Of a stretch of 64,000 nt of DNA, positions 3,503 to 56,113 are shown in pieces (positions within the stretch are counted from its first letter, which is position 1; each line of letters starts with the position of its first letter). The translations under genes and the position numbers were made by a program. The notes beneath the pieces were generated by a model. The model saw only the letters and a program-made list of their open reading frames with translations, did no database searches and was not told the origin of the DNA. The DNA is from Apostichopus japonicus (Eukaryota; Echinodermata; Holothuroidea; Aspidochirotida; Stichopodidae), in NCBI RefSeq assembly GCF_037975245.1, contig NC_092568.1, forward strand, positions 35,562,501 to 35,626,500. The letters are read 5' to 3'.

Positions 3503-6500
3503 AAACCGTGTATTCTACAGCGACTTCTGTGAGAGATGGAGTGTGGTATTCTCTGGCTCTGACGTCCCTAACGTTGAAAGGTCACAGAGATACCTCTATG
3601 AGAAGGAGAACCAGAGACCGGTTTGTTATAGACTGTTAACTTTATGGAATTGGTTTACTTGACTAGGACAAAGATATTGCTTATAACTGTTCTTTAGGTG
3701 TAAGTTGACCTTTTTTGGTCCAGTGGGGCTTCCATAGGGATGTAGTGGAGGAAGGGGGAGGGGGGGGCAGAAGGGACAGGGAGAGGGAAGGAAATTCCAT
3801 GTTCCCTCACTAGAGGAGGTCGACGAAGGAACATCAGGACAGGTGAAGCATTTCAACTTTGACCTCGTCCAAAAGAAAAATGCTACCAGTGAAAACAGCT
3901 TACAGGCCGACTAGCTACAAAACATCTCTATGCGTGTTTTTTTTTTCCCTAGTCTGCAGAGTGTAGTTCGGTGGAATGGTAGGGGATTGGGGTGGAGAAT
4001 GCTGGGAATAATATTTCAAAGGGGTCAAAATTACCTTGCCTTTCTTGGACAAACCGGGGGAGTTACCCTGGTAAGGTCAATAGTAACCATTCAATAACCA
4101 AATCACTTTGGTTCATCTTCACGTTGCTGGTTTTTGGTCGTTTCAGATTCAGTATGCTGCATATGCTACCGAGAAGAGTCTGGCTGTATTACTGGGTATC
4201 ATTCTGGTCGTCGTAAACTTGGCCATATTTGCCTTCTTCCGTTGCGGAAGGAAGCTGATTGAAAAGGTGAGGACCCAAAGCCAACCGGTGGTTTATATCA
4301 TTCATTGTTTCATTAAGAAATGAGTGAACTCATTGAAAGTTTGAATTCAGTGATAAAAAAAACTAATTTAAAAAAAGTTCAATCTATGCTTTACATGTAC
4401 AGTTTTGCTTTATCAGTTTTCTATTTCTCCTTCACTTGCAATGATATCTGAAAAGAAAAGGATTTCAAATATCTTGAAATAACTTTCCTGATTTGCATAA
4501 AGATGATATGAGTGTTTATTTATCACTTTACATGCCATCCTCATTGGTTCGAGTCCTAGCAACTTACAAACAAGGAACATTGTAATAATTCTGACAGTTT
4601 TGATGAATAAAAATATTTAATAATAATATTAAAATTGGATTTTTATATAGCGCTTTATACCAGCAATAGGTCTCAAAGCCCATTTCAGACGTCATATTAC
4701 CCCTGGTCATTGATAACCTGTCCCAGAGACAATCCCTCTAGCCGGCTGCAGGTATATACTGCGCCCAATGACAAGTTACCTCACAGGTACCCATTTAACC
4801 CCTGGGTGGAGAGAGGCAATTGAGATAAAGCATCTTGCCCAAGGACACAAAGTAATGAACTAGGCAGGAATCGAACCAGTAATCCTTGGATCACAAGCCT
4901 GACGATGCCTTACCCAATGGCCCACCATGATCTCAATTTCAGAATATGAACTCTTCTCAATTTCAGTATCCAGGGGCATTCACGTTTGGTGCTTTCAGTC
5001 ACGAGGGACCCAGTGACGCCCAGATGGCAGGTACTTCCTTCAACTTTAAGTTCAGAGGCAGAGGTTTCTCGTCAGAAGCTGTCGAGAAGACGGAGAAAGA
5101 GGACATGGAAATCATCACACAAGTCGATGGACCAGGTTTGCGAAAATATTATTTGAAATCATCTATTTGTTATTTCAAATCTGTATTTTGTTCAAATTTG
5201 TGACAATCTTGTGTTTACCGTACACCACCGGTAAAGAATAGATAAGATACCAGAAAATCTGGTCCCTTTATTCCACTAAAACCTCACCAAGTAACAAGGA
5301 AACTGGGCAAACACGATACTTTGAGCCAGGCCAGGCGCATTAAGCAGTTTTCCCGCGAAAAAGTTAAAATATACATGAACTCTTGTTTGATGAAAATTTT
5401 CTGTACTGGCTTAAAGTGTAAACAAATGGATAGGTAGGGAGGGGCAGCTAAATGGATGTTAACACTTCAGTCTGTTAGTTGGATTGAATAATAGTTGGAT
5501 TGAAATATGTGTGAATATTTCATGGTCTGGTTAGAAAGATACAAAGTACCATTAAATATTCAATATGCAACCAAAAAGCTGATGTGGTAACAGGTCTCAG
5601 TCTTAGAGCGGCAGGTTTCAAGTAGCAGCTTGTTTAGATTACGTAACAACGAAACAATTATTTTAGTATAGCTGACACCGTTATCGATCAAAGAGAGCAA
5701 AATGGTGTTAAGAATTATACTCCCCGCCTCTGTCTTACTGGAAAAGCCTTCAGTCAAGGAAAGTATGAAAGTTACAAAATTTGTCTGATTTTCAGTACAA
5801 GAAACTATACTTTTTCTGAGGTAGGCTGTCCAATTAATACAAAGTTGTTTGTTTGTTGTAAACTTTGTCAGTCTTCCTCTGAATAAGCAGGCCCTCTAGT
5901 TAGGGCTGTTGACGGGGGTAGGAATTAAGGTGTGAAATCTCCGGCCTGACCCTAACCCTAAGGAAGGAGTGTCTAAAAGTCGAGTCGTACCATTTGCAAA
6001 ATTTTCTTTGATTGAGATTGCTTATATGGAAAGTGGTAGTACCTCTTTCAGCTTCCAAGCAGAAGAAAGCGCCTACAGTTTTCATTTTTCAATTAGGGCC
6101 TGTTTTTATGTCGTTATCGATGGTTTTATGCATCCACCCATCCTTCTTGTGGTCGGTCAGTCTGTCCGTCCGTCCGTCCATCCGTCTGCTTGTTTGTTCT
6201 GTTTTCATTCTTATCAAGACCCACGGCCCAGCCATCCAACAGGTCATTGAATAAAACTTTGCCTCTTACCCACAACAAAAACTGCAGACTACCATACTGT
6301 ACATGTAGGTAAATTTCCATTTTGAGGATATGATCATAGTTTAACAGTGTGAACGAAAATGTAAACTTACTAGAAGCTGTATCCAATGGAAAGTAGTAAT
6401 TTCAAATGACAAGCCCCGTTCTCATAACCAGAATAATTACGTCGGCAAACACTTTTCTTTTCTTCCCATCGCAGAGATGGCCTACGTCGCTACTCCGATC

Positions 6501-11549: not shown

Positions 11550-14500
11550 CTATATTTTGTGAGCTGCTCGTATCACAGAGAACTTAATCCCATGTTTATG
11601 ACAGCGATCTATCAGCGATGTCCGATGAAAGGCTGCTGCGGGTGTGTAAACGCCACCTCTGTGAGAATACGTAGATATAAGCATACAAAGATAGCAGGTT
11701 AGAGAAATGAACAAATTGATTGACACCTAAAACAATTAACACGCAGTGAATAAATATAAAGCCATATTTAATGGATTACATTTTGAGCGAGGGGGGGGGG
11801 GGGGTGGAGGATGATTCAGCGATATACAGATATGCGCACAAACACTGTAGGGGGAAAGGGTTCCCATAGGTGCATGGATGTCTGTAGGGTAATTCTTCCA
11901 TGATAGGTGGATATCGATACTATATCCTGCAAAGGCGCAAGGAAGTCCGTGGTATTTTGGTTATAGTGGCTTTAACGGAGTATTGCTGTGTTTGTGTCAT
12001 GCGTGTGTGAGGGTGGGGGGGGGTGGGGAAGGGGTGATATATTAAGAAAAACTTGTGAAAATATAACACCATATTACAAATAAAACTCAACACACTGTCA
12101 TAAAACTTGCTTGGCAAATCGTGGGACATTTGGGTGCGGGTGGGGGGGGGGGTGGGGGCGGTGTTACTGACAAAGATGTGATTACCTGTCTGGAAGATAG
12201 CTCGTTTCTTTAAGAATCGTCAGACCAGCTTGTATCATGCCAATCGGAGTTGTGACGTATGCCATTTCTAACAAAAAACAAACAAACTACAGTTCAAAAT
12301 ATTTCAAAACATACTTTATACAGGCCTTAGTATCGACCTTATGTCTATAAACTGCATATATAATCATTGCAGTTAATATATAGATCGCTGTTATTTTGGG
12401 CAAGTTACGAAGGCATATACTGTTGTATCAGAGTATATGAATTGAAGTACAGACCCATAGATTCGAGCTTTTGATAGCAGTTTCAGTTTCGATCATTTTG
12501 TAGATATTCTTATAAGTAGTACTGGAACTTGCACAAACTGATGTCGAAGACGTTATCAGATCCACATATATAGATATGTATAGATTGTCTTGACTTACGC
12601 AATAGAATGTGTCACCAACGGTCAATTATCAATTCTTCTTATGTCTACCCGACCCCTCCCCACCCCTTTGGGAACCAGGTAGTGTTTCGGGGACATCTAT
12701 GTCACCAGACCCCTGAAGTTTCTGACAGTATTATGAAATAGCAACACTATACTTAAGTTACTTCGCGAGCCCTCGGTATTTTTCCTGGCTCCCTAATTGC
12801 CACAGGTTCCTCCCTTATACCACTCAGCCTGATCAGCCCCTCGCATCGATTCTCTCTCTATGTTTATAAATCCCTAATTAAGGCATGACGTTGCATCCAT
12901 GATGACAAGTTCGTGTGTAATTGAACAATAATGTTGGGAGGTGTATGCTGCGTTGTTTTACCTCCATGGTTGTACTATGAGTCACATTGAGAGAGTTTGA
13001 ATTTCCGATCAATTGAAAACTGAAAACGCTCTTTTACAAACCTGGTCCACATACTTGAGTTATAATCGCCATATCTTCTTTTCCCGACTTTTCGACAGAT
13101 TTAGATGAGAAACCTCTACCTCTGAAGGTAAAGGTAAACGATGTGGTCGCCATCTGGGCCTCAGTGGGTCCCTCGTGGCTGAAAACTCCAAACGTGAACA
13201 TTTTTGGGTACTAATGTCAAAGGATTATTAACCATTAGTTAGACCAAAACAATGTTGACAAGAAATGTCAAAGTTTGGAAGGAAAATTAATTTGAAAGTC
13301 CTAATCATGGATTAAAAATGTAGACTTGAAAGTTAAACTTTTGAAGGACGATTATTTTGCAACTAAATTGTTGGCAAACCTGAGTTTCCTCATAAGAAGT
13401 TAGCCAATTTTGCAGACAAACGTAACATATTTGAGTGACACGAGACATATGTCGAATTGCCAGTTATAATATAACCAGTTGCCATTATTCTTGATTCAGT
13501 GTTGAAGTTAAGTTTCCGTAGATGTATGCAGGCAGATGGGCAAAAGTTGAGCGGCTGAAGGTCAAGGGGGTTTCAAAGGTCACGGGACATATTTTGTTAG
13601 CTTCTCGGCCTTTTGGCTAAGATCATAAGTAGTATCTCTTCCCTTTCGAGGGAAATGGTGATGCACACCTGACGATGATCACACAGTCACAGTCCCGATG
13701 CAAGGGGACTGGGGTTAGAAGCGGATCAGTCGTTCAGTAGTTTGGTTTTCGTGCCCAGGTTCTTTCCTGGGCGACTTTTTCTTAAAAAGTATATTTTGTT
13801 AGCACTGACGGGCAAGGTATAAATAATGTCTGTCTTTTGGTTTGTGCCTGTAACATTTAGTATGGGGGGGGGGGTGGGATGGGGCTTGCAAGCATGGCAC
13901 TCTATATAGAGGGTGCTAATCTGGCACCGATAGCTGTATACAATTGTCGGTATGTCATATTTCTTACATAACTTGACAATTTATCGAATGTCAGGTCAAT
14001 AAAATACAAGACAAATATCCTCAAATTTGCAAAAGAAAGCATACTTCATTTACATAAGAAAGAGTACTTCATTTTCATAAGAAAACAAACAAAGTTGCTT
14101 CATGAATTTACCTTGGAGAGAAGTTTTCGTCCACATCTGAAGATAGACAAGATCCCAATATTTATCATGACAAAGATAAATGACATCAAAGATAAGAAAC
14201 TCCGCCTAGTGTAACTTTGTCGATACTGCACCTGTCAATATTAAATGAACGAAACGATTGGAACAGTGCCCATTAATTGTTGTCTCTTAATTAATTTACA
14301 CACAATTATAGTATACATTCTAAGCCTGCCTATTGTAAGCTGGTTGCATGTCAGAGCAGGGAGTTGTTCCATATAACAACTCCCTGGTCAAAGGCATTTT
14401 TGAACACCCCACAGCCTCCCCGTGTCACTGTCCCTTCCCCCAGCTCCTTTCAAATTCTCCAATCTCACATTTACCTGTCTAGCAGCGGTTGCTCCTGTTT

Positions 14501-16151
14501 TCTAATCCTGTTGTAAAATCGAGACAGCCGATTGGTAACTGATGTCATGCATTGCAAAGAGAACTGAGAGGAAGATCAGAGCATCAAATTCCATTACACT
14601 CAGCAGTGGCGTAGGAAGGTACTTTTGAGTGGGGGGGGGGGCTGAAGACTGACGGCCGGCCTGGGGGAGGGGTCTAAGGGGAGGGGGTGTCCCCTCCTTT
14701 GGATTTTTTTTTGCATTTCCAGGTGGCCTCAGATGCAATTTGGTGCAATATAGCACACTTCAACACCCACTCCATTTTGTAACTAATTTTGCATTTTCAC
14801 CTGGCCTTAGATGCAATTTGGTGCTCCAAATGAGATTTTTTTTCTCATTTGGAAATGAAAAAGGGGGTTTCTGACTTGCGAAGCGGTGGGGGGGGGGGCG
14901 GAATGATACTTCCGCCCCCCATATTTTTCACTAGGGGGCTGGCGCCCCCAGCCCCCCGGTTCCTACGCCCTTGACACTCAGTAAAAGGAGATTAATTTCT
15001 TACCGGTCTTTCCTTCTTGGTCTCGTAAAGGTATCTCTGTGATCTATTGACAACACTGGCATCAGTACTGTTTAATGGTATGCACCAACCTCCACAGATA
15101 TCACTGTAGAACAGCGGGCCCCTGTATAGACATATAAAAACAAGTATTAAATAAAGTGGTATCAGGAAAAACGTGTGTTTTGAAGCTTAACAATATGAAT
15201 GTAAAAATTATTTGAATGGCCATAACGCCAACTTTAATTTACCTCTTGATTTTATTTGGAAAACTGCTAGAATTTTACAAATTCTATACAGGAAAGATAT
15301 ACGAGTCAAGCTGGTCGGTTACCGAGGACAATTATGTCACCAGGTTGCCCCCCCCACTCTATGGTACCCTCCATTCCCCCTTAAGTATATTATGAAGAGT
15401 ATATATTTTCCCGGGCACTCTTCACATTTTCTCGGCTCCCTAATTCCAAGGCCCCCCCCCCCCGACCAACTTGTGTCAGGTCTGATCCGATGTGCAAATA
15501 ACCTATTTTCCAGAAACAGAGTTCTTGTAAAAAATTATCCGTTATGTTAGAGAAAAACACGTATTCGAGTTAACATCAAGTGTATCGTGAAATTGTGATG
15601 TTTAAGGGACGCTCGAAAAGTTAGGCAACTACGGTACCTCGCAATTTTACCTTATCACGACGTAGTCCATTGAAAACACATAAAATCTACTAAGATGGAT
15701 GCTTCAGAGATTCAGCATGTACCTTGGTTTAAGTTTGGGCTTGCACTCAGGTAACGGAGCATAGTGAAACCTTTCACGTATTTCCTTAATCTCATTTCGA
15801 TTGGCTACAACGTGCACTGCAGAATTCAAAGTTCCAAAATTTAAGGTTGTTCCCTGTGTGTAAAATGAATGCGCAAGATTATCAGATGCAAACAGTCTTA
15901 GGCCTATAATTCAAACCGTCGTAATTATAGAGAAAAGAAGAGCAAATTAAGATTAATAGATTTATGATGATGACAATGAGGAAGATCATGCTGACGAAAT
16001 GAACAATAATGATGACGATTACTAACAGTACAATAAACAGTACAAAATATAACAATAGTCATATACCGATAACAGTAACAAGGTAATAACGATATGACGA
16101 TAATGATGATGATGATGACGACGACGACGACGACGATAATGATGATGATGC

Positions 16152-16845: not shown

Positions 16846-19604
16846 GGAACGTCAGTCGGTGAGTTATGAATTAAAATAATTCAACTTTGAAACTTTTGTT
16901 GCCCTCTCTTTGTCTTTGGCAAATCCTTTCCATATTACTTTTTAGTCACATGAAATTTCAACCTGAATTTATTTTTATCATTTAAAATTTGACGGAACGT
17001 ATAGTCAGACTAATCATGAATTGCTATGAGATTTTTGAATTCAGCAGTACCGGAAAAAATAATCGCCCAAACGTTGCTTTCTAGTAAGTAGAGTGCATGT
17101 TGTTAGGAATTTGGTCTCAAAAGACAATTTAAACTTTCACGGAGCCTTAACACAAACAATCTCTAAATGTACAATCATATAGAATAATTCATTCTACCAG
17201 TGAAGCCGTGAAGTGACATACGTACGTTTGAGATCAGGACGAGAACACCACTTGATTTATCAAAATATGAAACTATTAATACATATAATGTGTTTTCTTT
17301 ATCATTTTCAAGGACATGAAATCAAAGTCAACATTTTCTTACCTGGAAATTGTTTCTTGACAAATAAGACTCCAAGATCTGAAGGAATGCTATCAAATCC
17401 ACACGCTTCTACAATGTATACTCCGGCCTTCTTGGCAGTCTCGTGATAATCAAGTTGTAACTTTTCAAGAAACTGCAGGAAGAGTTACATTTATGACGTA
17501 CAGTTGGTTGCTATTGTAAAGTAGGCTACGTATATATACTTGAGTATAAACGATACGGTCTACACACTGCAGAAACTAACGTGCATATTATTGCATCAAA
17601 GGTAGCAATGCATTTTAAAGTTTTAGTAAATTGTTATGTCAGTCCGAGGGAAAAACAAACACACATGAGTGCTCATAATGTCTCTAGCTGTTCCGGTTTT
17701 CAAGACTTCCAGCTTTCAATTATAACTGCTAAATATCAGGAACGCTCCTTTAAGGCTACACTGGCGATGTCGTCACGTCCTCAGTGGAGTGCGTACATGT
17801 TAATTTTAATCCTTTGTCTAACTCGACCAAAACATGTCCTATCTACTTCGTATGGACAATAGAGAACCCTTTGTTGACGTTCAACAACATTTGTCGGTTT
17901 CTTGTACATTGTTAATTAACGTGTTACTTGAGGCCATACTTGTAAGAGTCTTATGGTTCCAATGGATGTTTGTGTTGTATCTGAGGAACTGACCTAATGG
18001 TTTGTATATGTGTTCAACTGAACAGTACAACCACTTAAAATGACGAGCCACTAGTATTTAAATGATCATTTCTCATTTTCAGCTCTTATAGACATGTATA
18101 AACTGACAGCTTTAGTATTTTACGGTCTACATAATCAAACTTAATTTTGTGACTAAAGCAATCCTTTTAAAAATAGGTTGAAATGCATCGACAGACCGTA
18201 TGTATGAATGTACAGTATGTATGAATTTTAGTTCCTCCTGCAAGCAGGCACTCGCGAAGAAGCCATCATTGTCTTATCAAAGCCGCAAGCTGACCGAAGT
18301 CAGTCTCTTAGATTCATATTTAACGTCCATGATTATGAATTGTCAATTGTCAACAACTGTGTAACTTGACGACATACATTATTCTTGGGATGACTCGAAC
18401 TGGGGACCTTTTGATTGGAAGGCACCGGCGTTAACCACTAAGCTAGCACTCCTTGAGCTAACACTTCACACCGTTTATACAATTGTGTTTTTCTCTCAAA
18501 ACTACTTGGCATTTTGTGCCTATAAAGCAATCCTTTTTACAAGAGGTTAAAAAGCATCGACAGCCCGTTTATACAATTTTTTTTCCTTCTCAAACTTCAA
18601 TTCAGGCCTAAACGAATTGGAAACAAATTGTTATTACGATGAGAGGTCTGAAAGCAAATTGAATGACTACATCATTTTAACGAGAAAATATAAAAAAGAA
18701 TTTCAACAAAGTTCAGATTTTTAATTACATCGTCCTTCAAAATTGATTTACCTGTATTTCACCGCTGATATCAATGTGATGACATTTGTTTCTTATGCAA
18801 GCTTCCACCACAGGTACACCGTAGAAACGATACTGTTATAACATAAAAGAACTATAAGATTAAAACGTAGTCGGTTCGCCTCATGATCACGGAGGAATCG
18901 TTTATGACATGGAAATGTTAGATATGTTGTGAGTCTACATTACCAGGCAGTACTTAAAGTATAAGTAATTCTAACATGAAAAGATACTTGTTCCGCACGA
19001 CGTAATATTTACAACTATTCGATCCCTGTCACACAATTGAACGCACCCCACCCCCTTTCTCTATATCACGTAAGGTACCTCACTCCAGACTAAGTTGAAC
19101 ACTTTTAAGGTTGTCATGGGCTCTTCCGGTTTGTATACGCCTTGGCAAGTAGTGAGACATCAATTAAACTGGTCTTTCTCCTGTATGGATATAATTAACT
19201 GTTACTTTCCTGCTCTCATCTTCCCTCGCTTTTTTCCTACTCATGGAATGTAATACATATATATATTTAGAAAATGCAGAGATATTTACGATTTTAAATT
19301 TTTGACCATTGACTGCATGGTATGATGCAATACAGGATAAAATCTTACGGGACCAACAAGATTGAGCAAAAGCTTTCCTCGCCGACACATGGCGTCCAGA
19401 GATGCAACATCGCTCACATCTGCAGAAACGTATCCGACTTGCTTCAGGTTAACTCCTATCAACAAATATTCGAACATAAAACAGCTTTAACGGTGAAGTG
19501 TAGCCTACGTCAAGATTACTGTACTCACACAAAATATCTTAGAAATTCGAAACGTAGACACCTATTTGATCAAATTTGCAGACTGTTTGTGTCTATATAT
19601 AAAT

Positions 19605-22059: not shown

Positions 22060-24733
22060 ATGCCAGCAGGAGCTATGCCATCAAGGCCTGTGCAGGCTTT
22101 GGCCCCGTATGTCAGGCAGATCGGACCATTTCTCATACCTTGTGTAGTACTTACAGGTTACCTAATGACAAAGGCAACAATAATTGGATGTAAGTTACAC
22201 TTCTATCTCATGTATCTATTCTTTCAACCTCAAGACAAAACTTCATGATAATATTTAGCTTGTCTCACATTTCCAGAAATGTGACTTATGTTGAACTTAG
22301 TGACTTGGCATAAAACGGCTCTTTTGTCACATTAACTTCACAGCAACTCTTTGGCTTTGATTTTATTACTGTTAGATTGCTGTACAACAATTAAATTCCA
22401 TTACACTGTTCATGTCGGGCATTAACTAAACTACTGAGGATCTTTTTTATGTTCAAACAATGAGGTAACACTCCAAAGTTCTGAACATCTTGAATTTGTT
22501 CTTTGTATGTGCTTAGTAAACTATGTTAAGTGTCTGGTTATCAAAGTGTAGAGGATTGGATCAAACTCAATAAAGAATCCCTCAGTAACCTTCATTTGGT
22601 AATCAAACCCAGGAGGTTTATTAACTATGATTGGTTGTGTTTTTCAAATTGACCACAAAGCTCAAAAGGCACTTTAAGTTACCAAATCTAGTTGGAATTG
22701 CAGGAGTTTTGCCATCCAATGCCCCACTCCCTTTCCACTCCTAAACAGAGGTTGGTTTCAGAGACCCCAGGGCAGCACCCCCTGGTTTTTAAAGTCCATG
22801 ATTTGCCTCTGGTCTTTCCATAAGGGTTCAAGGATCCTACCTTCAGCAGTCAGGGGAATTTTGCTTTTTGAGATCGAGCCAACACCTCGGACCTACTGTA
22901 CGTTAGGCCCTATGGACTTTAGAAGGTCCCACGGAAATACTGTATTCTACTTTTAAGTTTCCTGTAAAGTGTGATGGTTCTGTTCTGTTGTAGGTGCATA
23001 GTCATATCAAACTACTTGATACTAAATGTAATGTGCATCAAAAGGCTGCCAGACTGACTCTTCAAAGATTGGCCATAGTTGCTGAAAGAATGTAGATTTG
23101 TCTTGTCTGTTGATGTTAACAGAGGTTATCCTTGGGTGTAGCATTCTTCTCTGAAGATGCAATATTTTCTTAATTTCAAATGCCTTTTCTTTTCTTCCAG
23201 TGAGGGAGAAACGTGCAAAACAAGCAATGGGAGGTGACTCAGGTAAGGTTTTGAAGAAAAACTGTTGCTTGCACAGTTTGGTATAAATTTGTGATACATT
23301 ATTGATACTTAAATTGTATATTTATTATTCAAGTTTTCATTGAACCAACAGCAAGCAAGTTCAATATTTTGAAACATTCGTGACTGGGTCTTCGTCCATG
23401 CGACACAATTTTCAGATTCAAATGCAATACCTGGTGGGTTTGTAAAAGTTTACAAGAAAGCTCCTTTAATGACACAATGGGATAGAGCAGCTCTGTACAA
23501 TTGATCTCTAAGTGCTGACAATTTCTAGCCGGCATTCTGAGTATTTTGGACACTAGGACTGTTATTAATCAATCTAAGAAACCATCCCAGCTGTTTTCAC
23601 TGTGACAAATCATGCAAGACTACTCTTGTAGAATTGATATGTCACATACAGTTGCTTTGCAACTGAAGTTCACTGAATCACATCATCTACCTAGACTTGT
23701 CATTACTTCGAGGTGCCTTGTTGAAACGAAACTAAGCCGTCCATTTTTGATATGCTTACATCATAGTATGCACATATGTATACATAGTATGCACATATGT
23801 ATACATAGTATACATAGTATGCACAAGGTAAGTTGCTGCTATGTTAACCATGTGGCTTGACTTACAATAAATGAAATGAATTCTGACTTGACTTAAGTTG
23901 TGCTAAAATGTAAAATGACTTTTGACTTGAGCAAAATTGACCTGTGACTTGGCTTCACAAAAAGTAAGCTTCTCTGAGCTATGGTGTAGGTTAACCAATC
24001 ATTTCTAAGTTATTAGATTGACTTGCAAATCATGGACCACTAGTTGGCTACGGAATCTCTTATACTCAAGAATAGAAACGACAGGTATCATTGACCATTA
24101 TGTGTAGTAATTATAGCACTGCCCGAGGATACCAATTGCATTCCTGGAGAGATACGTGTCAATGTGGTTTGCGGTCAAGTGGTTAAGGCAGTGGACAGGT
24201 GATCTAAGGATTACAGGTTCGAGCCCTGGCCAGATCATTGCGTTGTGTCCTTGGGCAAGGCACTTTATCTCCATTGCCTCTCTTCACCCAGGTGTATAAA
24301 TGGGAACTTGCAAGGTAACTTGTAAATATAGTTGCGTGCGCCGGTTTGTAGTTGTACCCTATGGGAAGTCCCCCGGGGGACACATGGTTGTGGTGCACTT
24401 TGGTGCCCCAGGAGAATTGCGCACACTTTGGTGTGTAGGTGTGACAAGTTACCAATGACCAACGCTTAGTTGTACATGCTATGGTACATTTAGCGCCTTT
24501 GAACAATTTCTGTTGACTTTGGCGCTATAAAATGTCTTCTGATTGATTGATTGATTGAAAGAAATGTAAACTGAAGTTGGTTGATGGCGCAATGTCATGT
24601 AAGATCGATTTGAACTGGAGGTACAGTTATCTGTATCACATAATTCCATGATATTGGTTCGGTTTGCTTCTCCTTGACTGGAAATGCTTCTTCTTAAAAA
24701 CAAAAATTGTTTCTATCTGCAGGTCATCATTGA
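22060..24733 (+). CDS. Small single-span membrane protein, ATP5MJ/6.8-kDa proteolipid-like
   Basis: Coding parts: 22060-22189, 23201-23242, 24723-24733 (stop TGA). All introns are GT-AG with agreeing phases, giving exactly 60 residues. The acceptor at 22048 lies 11 nt before the ATG. The N-terminus is short and Pro/Ala-rich, followed by APYVRQIGPF, one hydrophobic span (FLIPCVVLTGYLM), a basic stretch (LREKRAKQA) and the end GGDSGHH. Total length, one N-terminal-half span, the basic tail and the final Gly-His-His resemble the vertebrate 6.8-kDa mitochondrial proteolipid (ATP5MJ/MP68), a small inner-membrane subunit associated with ATP synthase. Sequence identity is low, so the assignment is inference; another small mitochondrial membrane protein is possible. 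The last exon adds only three codons plus stop. It is head-to-head with SCCPDH-B. Confidence 0.6.
24165..24556 (+). mobile_element. tRNA-headed SINE in the proteolipid gene intron
   Basis: The tRNA-like head has A-box GGTCAAGTGGTTAAGGC and B-box GGTTCGAGCCC. The phrase GTGTCCTTGGGCAAGGCAC, a CACCCAGGTGTATAAATGGG segment, the end GGCGCTATAAAATG and a (GATT)n tail follow. The body is shared with 4620-4935. It lies in the last intron, in the sense direction. Confidence 0.85.
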
Positions 24734-51057: not shown

Positions 51058-51760
51058 TAAATTGAATACACTAAGTGTTGCATCTATATATCTCTTTTAC
51101 TTGTAGCGGGATTCCTCTACAGGCAAACGTATCTGTGGAAAAAATCCATTAGGGTATCGAAAATTGTGCGATTTGTATATATTACATGCTTCTATAGCAC
51201 TGTAAATGTTGAGTGTAATATTTACATTCCATCGACTAGATAATAAAACGCTTTATGCTATATTTTAGTGAATCGTTTACATAGGCACTGTACAGAGCAT
51301 GTTGCAATCCCCAATTAGCATGACAAACGTAGTTAGTTACACACAAAACGATCTGTAGGCCTAATAAAATAAACAAGTGAAATATTACGAATTAATAATT
51401 GAAGATGTGAATCACTTACATTATAATAAATACATAAATACATAAGTTATGTTATTATTAGCTTGAAAACATCTTTATCTATGATCTATTACTTAACTTC
51501 CATCAATGGATTCTTACAGACCGTAGTAAGAGCATTGCATCGAAACTACGAATCACAATGTTAGAGCCACAGGAAACATCAAATTTGCACATTTTCATCA
51601 ACGGTAAAATAATTGGTGAAATATTAAGTCAAGAGGGATTCTTTTGATAAATGTAAACACTAAGGCAACATTTTCCTGTAATATATCTCAGGAAAAAGGA
51701 AAGAAATGCAACAGTCGAATATTATGGCTGACCGATTATTCCCGACTGTACCCTACATAC

Positions 51761-51946
51761 TTTTTAAGAAAGGTCACCCAGGAAAGAACCTGGGCACGAG
51801 AAAACCAAACGACTGATCTCAAGCCTAGTACCCCTGCATCGAGACGTGACTGCGTGATCATCGTCAGGTGTTCCCGGCCTAAAATTTTCGAGAATATATA
51901 GTGCTACACGGTCATGATCTTCCAAGTTAGCCAAAAGGCCGACAAG
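51761..51946 (-). mobile_element. SINE with U2-like head, second copy
   Basis: Minus strand: the head CTTGTCGGCCTTTTGGCTAA, then a diverged segment. The diagnostic body phrases ACACCTGACGATGATCAC, ATCAGTCG, TTTGGTTTTC and the hairpin CCCAGGTTCTTTCCTGGG follow, with the end CTTAAAAAGTAT. The order is the same as at 13599-13790. No target-site duplication is evident, so this copy is older. Confidence 0.8.
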
Positions 51947-55000: not shown

Positions 55001-55752
55001 GAAACAAATTAATAGATTAGCGAACAAAAGCTGGTGTTTGTAGTTTAAAACGATTCATTCAATTATCAATAAAGTTATCGATCAAGCACGTTGAAGATAT
55101 AAATTGCCTTATTAATACGCGAATCACAATATGGAAGTTACAATAATTATTTTACATATAGAAGAATGCCAAAATGGTAATAATATCAAATATCCATGCA
55201 GACAAAACGTTTCACATATTCTGTGTGCATTATTTACGAGCCTGTATATACACACACTTTAATCCAACACCACCTCTGGATGGTTATCCAACTACAATAA
55301 AGATTAGGAAGGGATCCTTAAGTACTTAGTGTTATAAGCGTTAATATCATGATGACTTTAAACATTGTCATTAGCACCCCTCTGCCCCGTCTTTCCTCCC
55401 CGTTTAACCGCTACTCCCACACCACACCGCCACCAACCTTGCTACCTTCGAGAAAGAAGACTGCTTGTACAAGTAATCTATTACGAATACCTAAATCGTC
55501 TCTCATTCCCTTCCAAATTACCCCTCTATATTCCCCCATTCCCTTTCCTTTCCTTCGAAAAAATACCTTGAAATACTACAATGATTACCCATAAATATTA
55601 TGGGCCTATTCATGTTGTGATAACATCACACTATTATAAGCCATGTCTCCTTTCTCTTCCTCCCCCAGTCATACCATTTGCACGACCCTTCATTTCTTCC
55701 GCATTACAATAATCCTTCATAATAAATAATTAAATATATAGGCATACACTAT

Positions 55753-56113
55753 CAAGGGCGTAGGAACCGAGGGGCTGGGGGGCGCCAGCCCCCCAGTGAA
55801 AAATATGGAGGGGCGGAATTATAATTCCGCCCCCCGCTTCGCAAGTCAGAAAACCCCTTTTTCATTTCCAAATGAGAAAAAAATCTCATTTGGAGCACCA
55901 AATTGCATCAAAGGCCAGGTGAAAACGCAAAATTATTTACAAAATGGAGTGGGTGTTGAAGTGTGCTACATTGCACCAAATTGCATCTGAGGCCACCTGG
56001 AAATGCCAAAAAATTCCAAAGGGGAGGGGGACACCCCCTCCCCTTAGACCCCTCCCCCAGGCCGGCCATCAGTCTTCAGCCCCCCCACTCAAAAGTACCT
56101 TCCTACGCCATTG
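55753..56113. mobile_element. hAT-type MITE, copy 2 (8-bp TSD), inverted relative to copy 1
   Basis: TACACTAT at 55745-55752 and 56114-56121 flank ends CAAGGGCGTAGGAACC and CAATGGCGTAGGAAGG (read inward). Internal words, including AAATGAGAAAAAAATCTCATTT and the G/C-rich arms, match the reverse complement of 14604-14973. Confidence 0.92.

Follow-up and report, generated by a model that had tools for sequence, protein, structure and literature searches.

The spread of SINEs is generally held to depend on an internal Pol III promoter. What sustains a short element whose head comes from a spliceosomal RNA, and how was that head acquired? The question is raised by a repeat at 13589-13803 in a 64,000-nucleotide stretch of the Apostichopus japonicus genome (C8:35562501-35626500, hereafter the window), which a sequence-only reading had taken for a SINE built on U2 snRNA and enclosed by a target-site duplication. 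We confirm that it is a genuine U2-headed SINE, belonging to a dispersed snRNA-headed family; an internal Pol III promoter, part of the usual definition of a SINE, finds no support in the sequence.

The copy proper lies on the forward strand at 13600-13790 and consists of a head corresponding to U2 nt 4-45, an unrelated body and a hairpin tail. The head (13600-13641) is delimited by the Rfam alignment, the family consensus and the host U2 genes. Positions 13598-13641 match nt 2-45 of the Rfam U2 consensus in an ungapped alignment at 40 of 44 sites, a score reached in none of 5000 shuffles, and form the top U2 match among tiles of the window on both strands; the mismatches fall at nt 30-32 and 42, and the base at nt 30 is that of the host U2 itself. 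With the Rfam U2 model the copy scores 37.2 bits (E 6.6e-6), short of the gathering score of 46 and with the match confined to the first ~45 nt; a scan of the window at Rfam gathering thresholds gave no match. Some 45 bases had been attributed to the U2 5' end and the rest to sequence unrelated to U2, and both attributions are borne out, the body scoring 8 against U2 from nt 47 to its end where shuffles average 9.2.

A small hairpin, TTCCC/GGGAA, spans the end of the head and the start of the body (13639-13654, forward strand), and in some other copies it takes the shorter form CCCTTCGGG. Further into the body (13668-13737, forward strand), two-copy, copy-B and consensus folds predict a long stem, CCTGACGATGATC / GATCAGTCGTTCAG, enclosing an inner hairpin GTCCC..GGGGAC; RNAalifold, run on the 63-row family alignment entered as T and not U, returned few pairs (-7.8 kcal/mol) and did not return this stem. 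The tail hairpin GTGCCCAGG-TTCTTT-CCTGGGCGAC (13751-13775, forward strand), supported by the two-copy fold and the many-copy alignment, ranks with the most strongly conserved parts of the family. It is followed by the 3' end TTTTTCTTAAAAAGT (13776-13790, forward strand), evident in the sequence and recurring as the family end motif, so that the short hairpin and A/T-rich tail ascribed to the element are both present; the motif was located in 70 copies, and in 68 of these the next base is A. Clean direct repeats had also been claimed, and the left duplication, ATATTTTGTTAGC (13 bp, 13589-13601), is identical at 13 of 13 positions to the right one (13791-13803), both on the forward strand. The window is rich in repeats, with three 13-bp runs at exactly the offset of the duplication, and a 13-bp repeat alone is not rare; the duplication is credible because its repeats flank both ends of the element, not because of their length. 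The left repeat and the U2 part overlap by 'GC' (U2 nt 4-5), and the bounds of the element are therefore 13600-13790: the proposed extent holds for the repeats and the head, and shifts at its start.

A second, older copy (copy B) occupies 51757-51946 on the reverse strand, is 82% identical to the first copy over the body and bears a degenerate U2 head. This head is correctly placed and ranks second among the U2 matches of the window, with a score that again none of 5000 shuffles reaches; no convincing target duplication accompanies it. Among the open reading frames listed for the 64-kb window nothing useful pointed to a LINE. Three other repeats were observed in the window. Two, at 18215-18454 / 39466-39250 and 24180-24323 / 4771-4916, contain by eye tRNA-like promoter sequences and are probably tRNA-headed SINEs, and the third, a foldback repeat of ~370 bp (14604-14974 and 55752-56113; copies 91% identical, G/C-rich ends starting GGGCGTAGGAACC), looks like a MITE. 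No body similarity was found between any of the three and the U2-headed element.

The genome (671.6 Mb in 35 contigs) holds many further copies. The dispersal that the sequence-only reading had anticipated was found: 45 matches came from the best 40 scored of 2594 first-look candidates, and 41 from the best 40 of 1829 when copy B served as query; the first-look counts are unverified, and as the scored matches are the best ones the sample is tilted to young copies. Neither of the outcomes that would have told against the claim, a lack of further copies or a head closer to some non-U2 RNA, materialised. Sixty-two copies at 58 loci give a consensus of 190 nt, from which the rows of the alignment (63, the window copy being entered twice) diverge by 1.7 to 17.8% (median 4.8%). 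The consensus head comprises U2 nt 4-45, nt 1-3 lying outside it, and differs from general U2 at nt 30 only (41/42); in 22 of the 63 copies the alignment starts at U2 nt 1. Target duplications, expected to vary in sequence and length, do so: 37 of 63 copies, tandem ones counted, have one of 8-24 bp, against 2% of 2000 re-paired flanks, and in the other 26 none was found by the same scoring. The family is thus short and non-coding, has many dispersed copies and is flanked by variable duplications of the LINE type. Pattern searches for copies beyond this genome gave 0 in viral contigs and 0 in GTDB genome contigs.

Individual loci illustrate the history of the family. At L052 a young copy has inserted into an old one and is flanked by a perfect 20-bp duplication. 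SINE copies stand in tandem at L003 and L041 with the same short target sequence between them, and the L003 pair represents two subfamilies. At L006 (1501-1691, minus strand) two U2 heads lie within one 15-bp duplication, likely a trace of template jumping. The sequence at L031:770-945 is, by eye, related to the body and tail but diverged; it shows no recognisable U2 head and may be an older SINE with a different one.

The head can be compared with the U2 genes of the host. A 17-base U2 pattern occurs at 149 places in the genome, 101 of them on the reverse strand, and some are SINE copies; on contig C16 many recur at a regular spacing of 645 bp, and the units read there are full U2 genes (184.8 bits). 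General U2 usually has A at nt 30, whereas host U2 has T, as does the SINE consensus, whose head agrees with host U2 nt 4-45 at 42 of 42 positions; this is a head from the U2 5' part, of the kind (U1 or U2) that marks SINEU elements. The three places in the genome with the commoner A at nt 30 are all SINE copies. Patterns combining U2 with its usual downstream sequence found 0 matches in the genome because host U2 reads CTTTTCAG there. Thirty dispersed copies start with ATCGC, and 14 of them agree with host U2 at every position from nt 1 through at least nt 45, 11 of the 14 up to nt 45 and three up to nt 49-50. Four further loci (L065, L071, L076 and L078) have, near base 1500, a U2-like start followed by non-SINE sequence, three of them reading CAGAYACACAG shortly after and L076 also carrying a weak SINE match; these may represent another U2-headed family or be pseudogenes of U2.

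The SINE also resides within the U2 genes themselves. At least seven copies occupy six units of the host array, joined between U2 nt 38 and 39: three units at L096, one at L098, one with two SINEs at L106 and one at L107. The search with one SINE-bearing unit scored the best 40 of 2797 candidates, and the number of residents is a lower bound. In the measured units the order is U2 upstream region, U2 nt 1-42 or 1-53, SINE, rest of U2. The upstream region of four SINE-bearing units matches that of an intact unit at 399/400, 399/400, 307/308 and 65/65 positions, and the U2 remainder downstream is identical over 155/155 positions three times and over 122/122 once. All seven 3' junctions are at U2 nt 39, one of the two at L106 being nt 39 of the adjacent SINE's head. 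The 5'-truncated residents of L096 and L107 are flanked by a duplication of U2 nt 39-52 or 39-53, and in L096 this duplication gives the truncated SINE a U2 head reaching nt 53. At L107 the truncated SINE stands behind a LINE end, which separates it from the U2 start, so that it does not adjoin the promoter. At L106 an outer truncated SINE is inserted in the U2 head of the inner resident, again between nt 38 and 39; the U2 target survives in that head, and the element therefore carries its own target site.

Autonomous elements share this site. The U2 array at C16:31006580-31162963, read in part (L092-L104, L106 and L107), contains LINEs and SINEs between nt 38 and 39 with intact units in between, and the LINEs have by eye three kinds of 3' end, each joined to U2 nt 39. 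LINE1 (L093) encodes an ORF1 with a CCHC knuckle and an ORF2 with RVT_1 and Exo_endo_phos domains, that is, a reverse transcriptase (RT) and an AP-type endonuclease. At the 5' junctions LINE1 follows U2 nt 1-30 and LINE2 (L094, with L095 taken by spacing as the other end of the same copy) follows U2 nt 1-50, the latter close to the head end of the three longest-headed SINE copies (nt 49-50). A tail in common with a LINE 3' end had been worth looking for, and none was found in the two ends scored: the SINE tail matches those of LINE1 and LINE2 no better than shuffled tails do. By eye only the last few bases of the third kind of LINE 3' end are common to the SINE.

The dispersed copies retain an echo of the U2 site. 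Ninety-five were located in 85 of 91 loci, 70 had the end motif, and the target was rebuilt for 37 distinct keys, including at least five tandem-copy rows (two from L003 and one each from L041, L070 and L073) and L062 in a TA repeat, so that the P-values calculated for the base preferences come out too small. These targets favour A/TCT (the slash marking the insertion point), the sequence with which the U2 cut site begins: A at -1 in 31 of 37, T at +1 in 28, C at +2 in 19 and T at +3 in 19, where 11.4, 11.4, 7.1 and 11.4 are expected; the A at -1 is partly ambiguous, as the element may itself end in A. Position +4 departs from U2, agreeing in only 3 of 37, and the window copy's own target is A/TAT and not A/TCT. 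The element hence has a fixed insertion site in U2 genes and is not strictly specific to it, many copies lying elsewhere with only the A/TCT preference retained.

What promoter could serve such an element? The best A box of the consensus matches at 6 of 9 positions and the best B box at 7 of 10, values equalled by 2000/2000 and 1646/2000 shuffles, so no internal Pol III promoter is detected by this test. The consensus also contains runs of four and five T, and a run of at least four T occurs within the first 30 nt in 74 of 91 dispersed copies and near the end in 85 of 91; Pol III is expected to stop at such runs. The absence of A and B boxes above chance, the T-runs and the copies aligning from U2 nt 1 together point to RNA made from the U2 promoter, from which the element is most likely transcribed, judging by sequence.

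These observations can be combined into a model that we regard as likely: a non-coding, snRNA-headed SINE that inserts site-specifically into U2 genes and persists there, with its RNA presumed to come from the U2 promoter and its mobilisation from U2-targeting LINEs. The U2 promoter (Pol II) would drive transcription from U2 nt 1 through the element, and the enzymes of U2-targeting LINEs (AP endonuclease and RT, as encoded by one LINE at this site of the array) would copy this RNA by target-primed reverse transcription. Insertion into another U2 gene would create a new promoter-driven source, the residents acting as sources, while insertion elsewhere, at A/TCT sites resembling the U2 cut site, would leave a promoterless copy such as that of the window. 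The U2 head would have been gained through insertion into a U2 gene and not by way of a Pol III gene, and could then, by its homology, help to make the 5' junctions of full-length residents scarless; R2 in 28S genes offers a precedent for leader homology at the 5' junction. Two residents match one dispersed copy at 189 of 190 positions. The residents could nevertheless be sinks instead of sources, since the dispersed copies are nearer one another than they are to residents (median best identity of 91 copies, 0.974 and 0.937, respectively). A more specific proposal, to which we give an even chance, is that a promoterless SINE homes into U2 genes, so that insertion, head gain and promoter capture would be a single event, the head would assist the next scarless 5' junction, and off-target copies would be by-products whose A/TCT preference stems from U2-like pairing or cleavage.

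Template jumping is the chief competing account of how the head first arose. The head may have been added when reverse transcriptase switched from SINE RNA onto U2 RNA, a mechanism put forward more widely for chimeric retrocopies, with spread from the element's own or neighbouring promoters and U2 genes as occasional sinks. Jumps do seem to occur, as in the double head of L006 and the partial extra head of L105; the 22 heads aligned from nt 1 fit a jump that reached the end of U2 RNA, and the residents are not, by the medians above, the nearest relatives of most dispersed copies. Against this, four residents between nt 38 and 39 adjoin upstream regions resembling those of intact units, the head boundary at nt 49-50 in three copies lies where a LINE inserted in U2 has its 5' junction (nt 50), one truncated SINE in a U2 unit is observed with a head supplied by the gene, and the sequence shows no sign of another promoter; we consider this alternative rather unlikely. 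L105 itself, on C20, lacks the U2 upstream region and comprises the partial extra head, the SINE and U2 from nt 39 on, with no exact repeat of at least 7 bp at its flanks; it may be a retrocopy of a U2-SINE co-transcript or a rearranged genomic fragment.

It is very improbable that the element is an ordinary Pol III SINE, perhaps tRNA-like, for which the U2 likeness would carry little weight. Copy B does contain a near-perfect A box (TGGCTAACTTGG, 8/9) and by eye a possible acceptor stem, and two other repeats of the window look tRNA-headed; the candidate tRNA likeness of copy B was rejected, as its box depends on a 7-nt insert absent from the other aligned copies. Moreover, the consensus boxes stand at shuffle level, T-runs come early in most copies, Rfam tRNA gave no match at E up to 10 and ARAGORN found no tRNA in the window. 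Errors or collapse in the assembly of the tandem array might also have produced apparent SINE-bearing units, such arrays being hard to assemble and all residents coming from one assembly. We think this extremely unlikely, given that the seven residents occupy six units in four separate parts of the array, that their heads and truncations differ and that two have plain target duplications. Retrocopies of snRNAs are known in animals (PMC7245038), and one-off U2 retropseudogenes or chimeras might accordingly be invoked in place of a family; this is practically discounted, being refuted by the 62 aligned copies with a common non-U2 body and tail at many insertion sites.

If the homing proposal is correct, it would explain the origin of snRNA-headed SINEs as well as repeated head replacement. 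Residence in U2 genes, with the leader kept as head, would constitute a direct genomic route to snRNA heads. It would likewise offer a tiny element a route to persistence, with one safe multicopy gene as source and many dispersed copies as output.

How does this element compare with known systems? In the crocodilian SINEU elements reportedly described by Kojima in 2015, the head is said to be the 5' part of U1 or U2 snRNA, with body and tail unrelated, and a Mariner transposon to be the preferred target; the elements were reportedly ascribed to a Tx1 LINE. The A. japonicus element resembles SINEU in its head from an snRNA 5' part and its unrelated body and tail, and differs in being found also inside U2 genes at one site; we set it beside SINEU, a named class of SINEs (PMC4455052), by its head. 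Keno and Utopia are U2-gene-specific LINEs, Keno having an AP-type endonuclease and Utopia being known from two sea urchins and one starfish (PMC4640811). Our element has in common with both the U2 cut site and the downstream U2 from nt 39, and an array LINE encodes, as Keno does, an AP-type endonuclease and RT; LINE1 fits Keno as described there, 'Keno-like' being a description from domains and site. Keno and Utopia are, however, autonomous LINEs with ORFs, whereas the SINE is ~190 nt long and non-coding, and it has no 3' tail in common with the two array LINE 3' ends scored. Snatches of this biology, namely snRNA-headed SINEs and U2-specific LINEs, are thus known, while a SINE resident in U2 genes with the leader as its head is unreported in the open-licence literature searched, in which we found neither a U2-headed SINE in an echinoderm nor any SINE in U2 genes.

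The remaining comparison is with the SIDEs (PMC3414825), which derive from R2 and R2/R1, are non-autonomous and sit in 28S genes. Like them, the present element is short, non-autonomous and at home in a multicopy RNA gene. SIDEs reportedly depend on transcription of the host RNA gene and on a site-specific LINE, as the present element would under the model above; they are reported to keep the ends of R2 and to have their 28S leader removed by the R2 ribozyme. In the sea cucumber SINE, by contrast, no LINE-derived end was found, the U2 leader is kept as the head, and many dispersed copies populate the genome.
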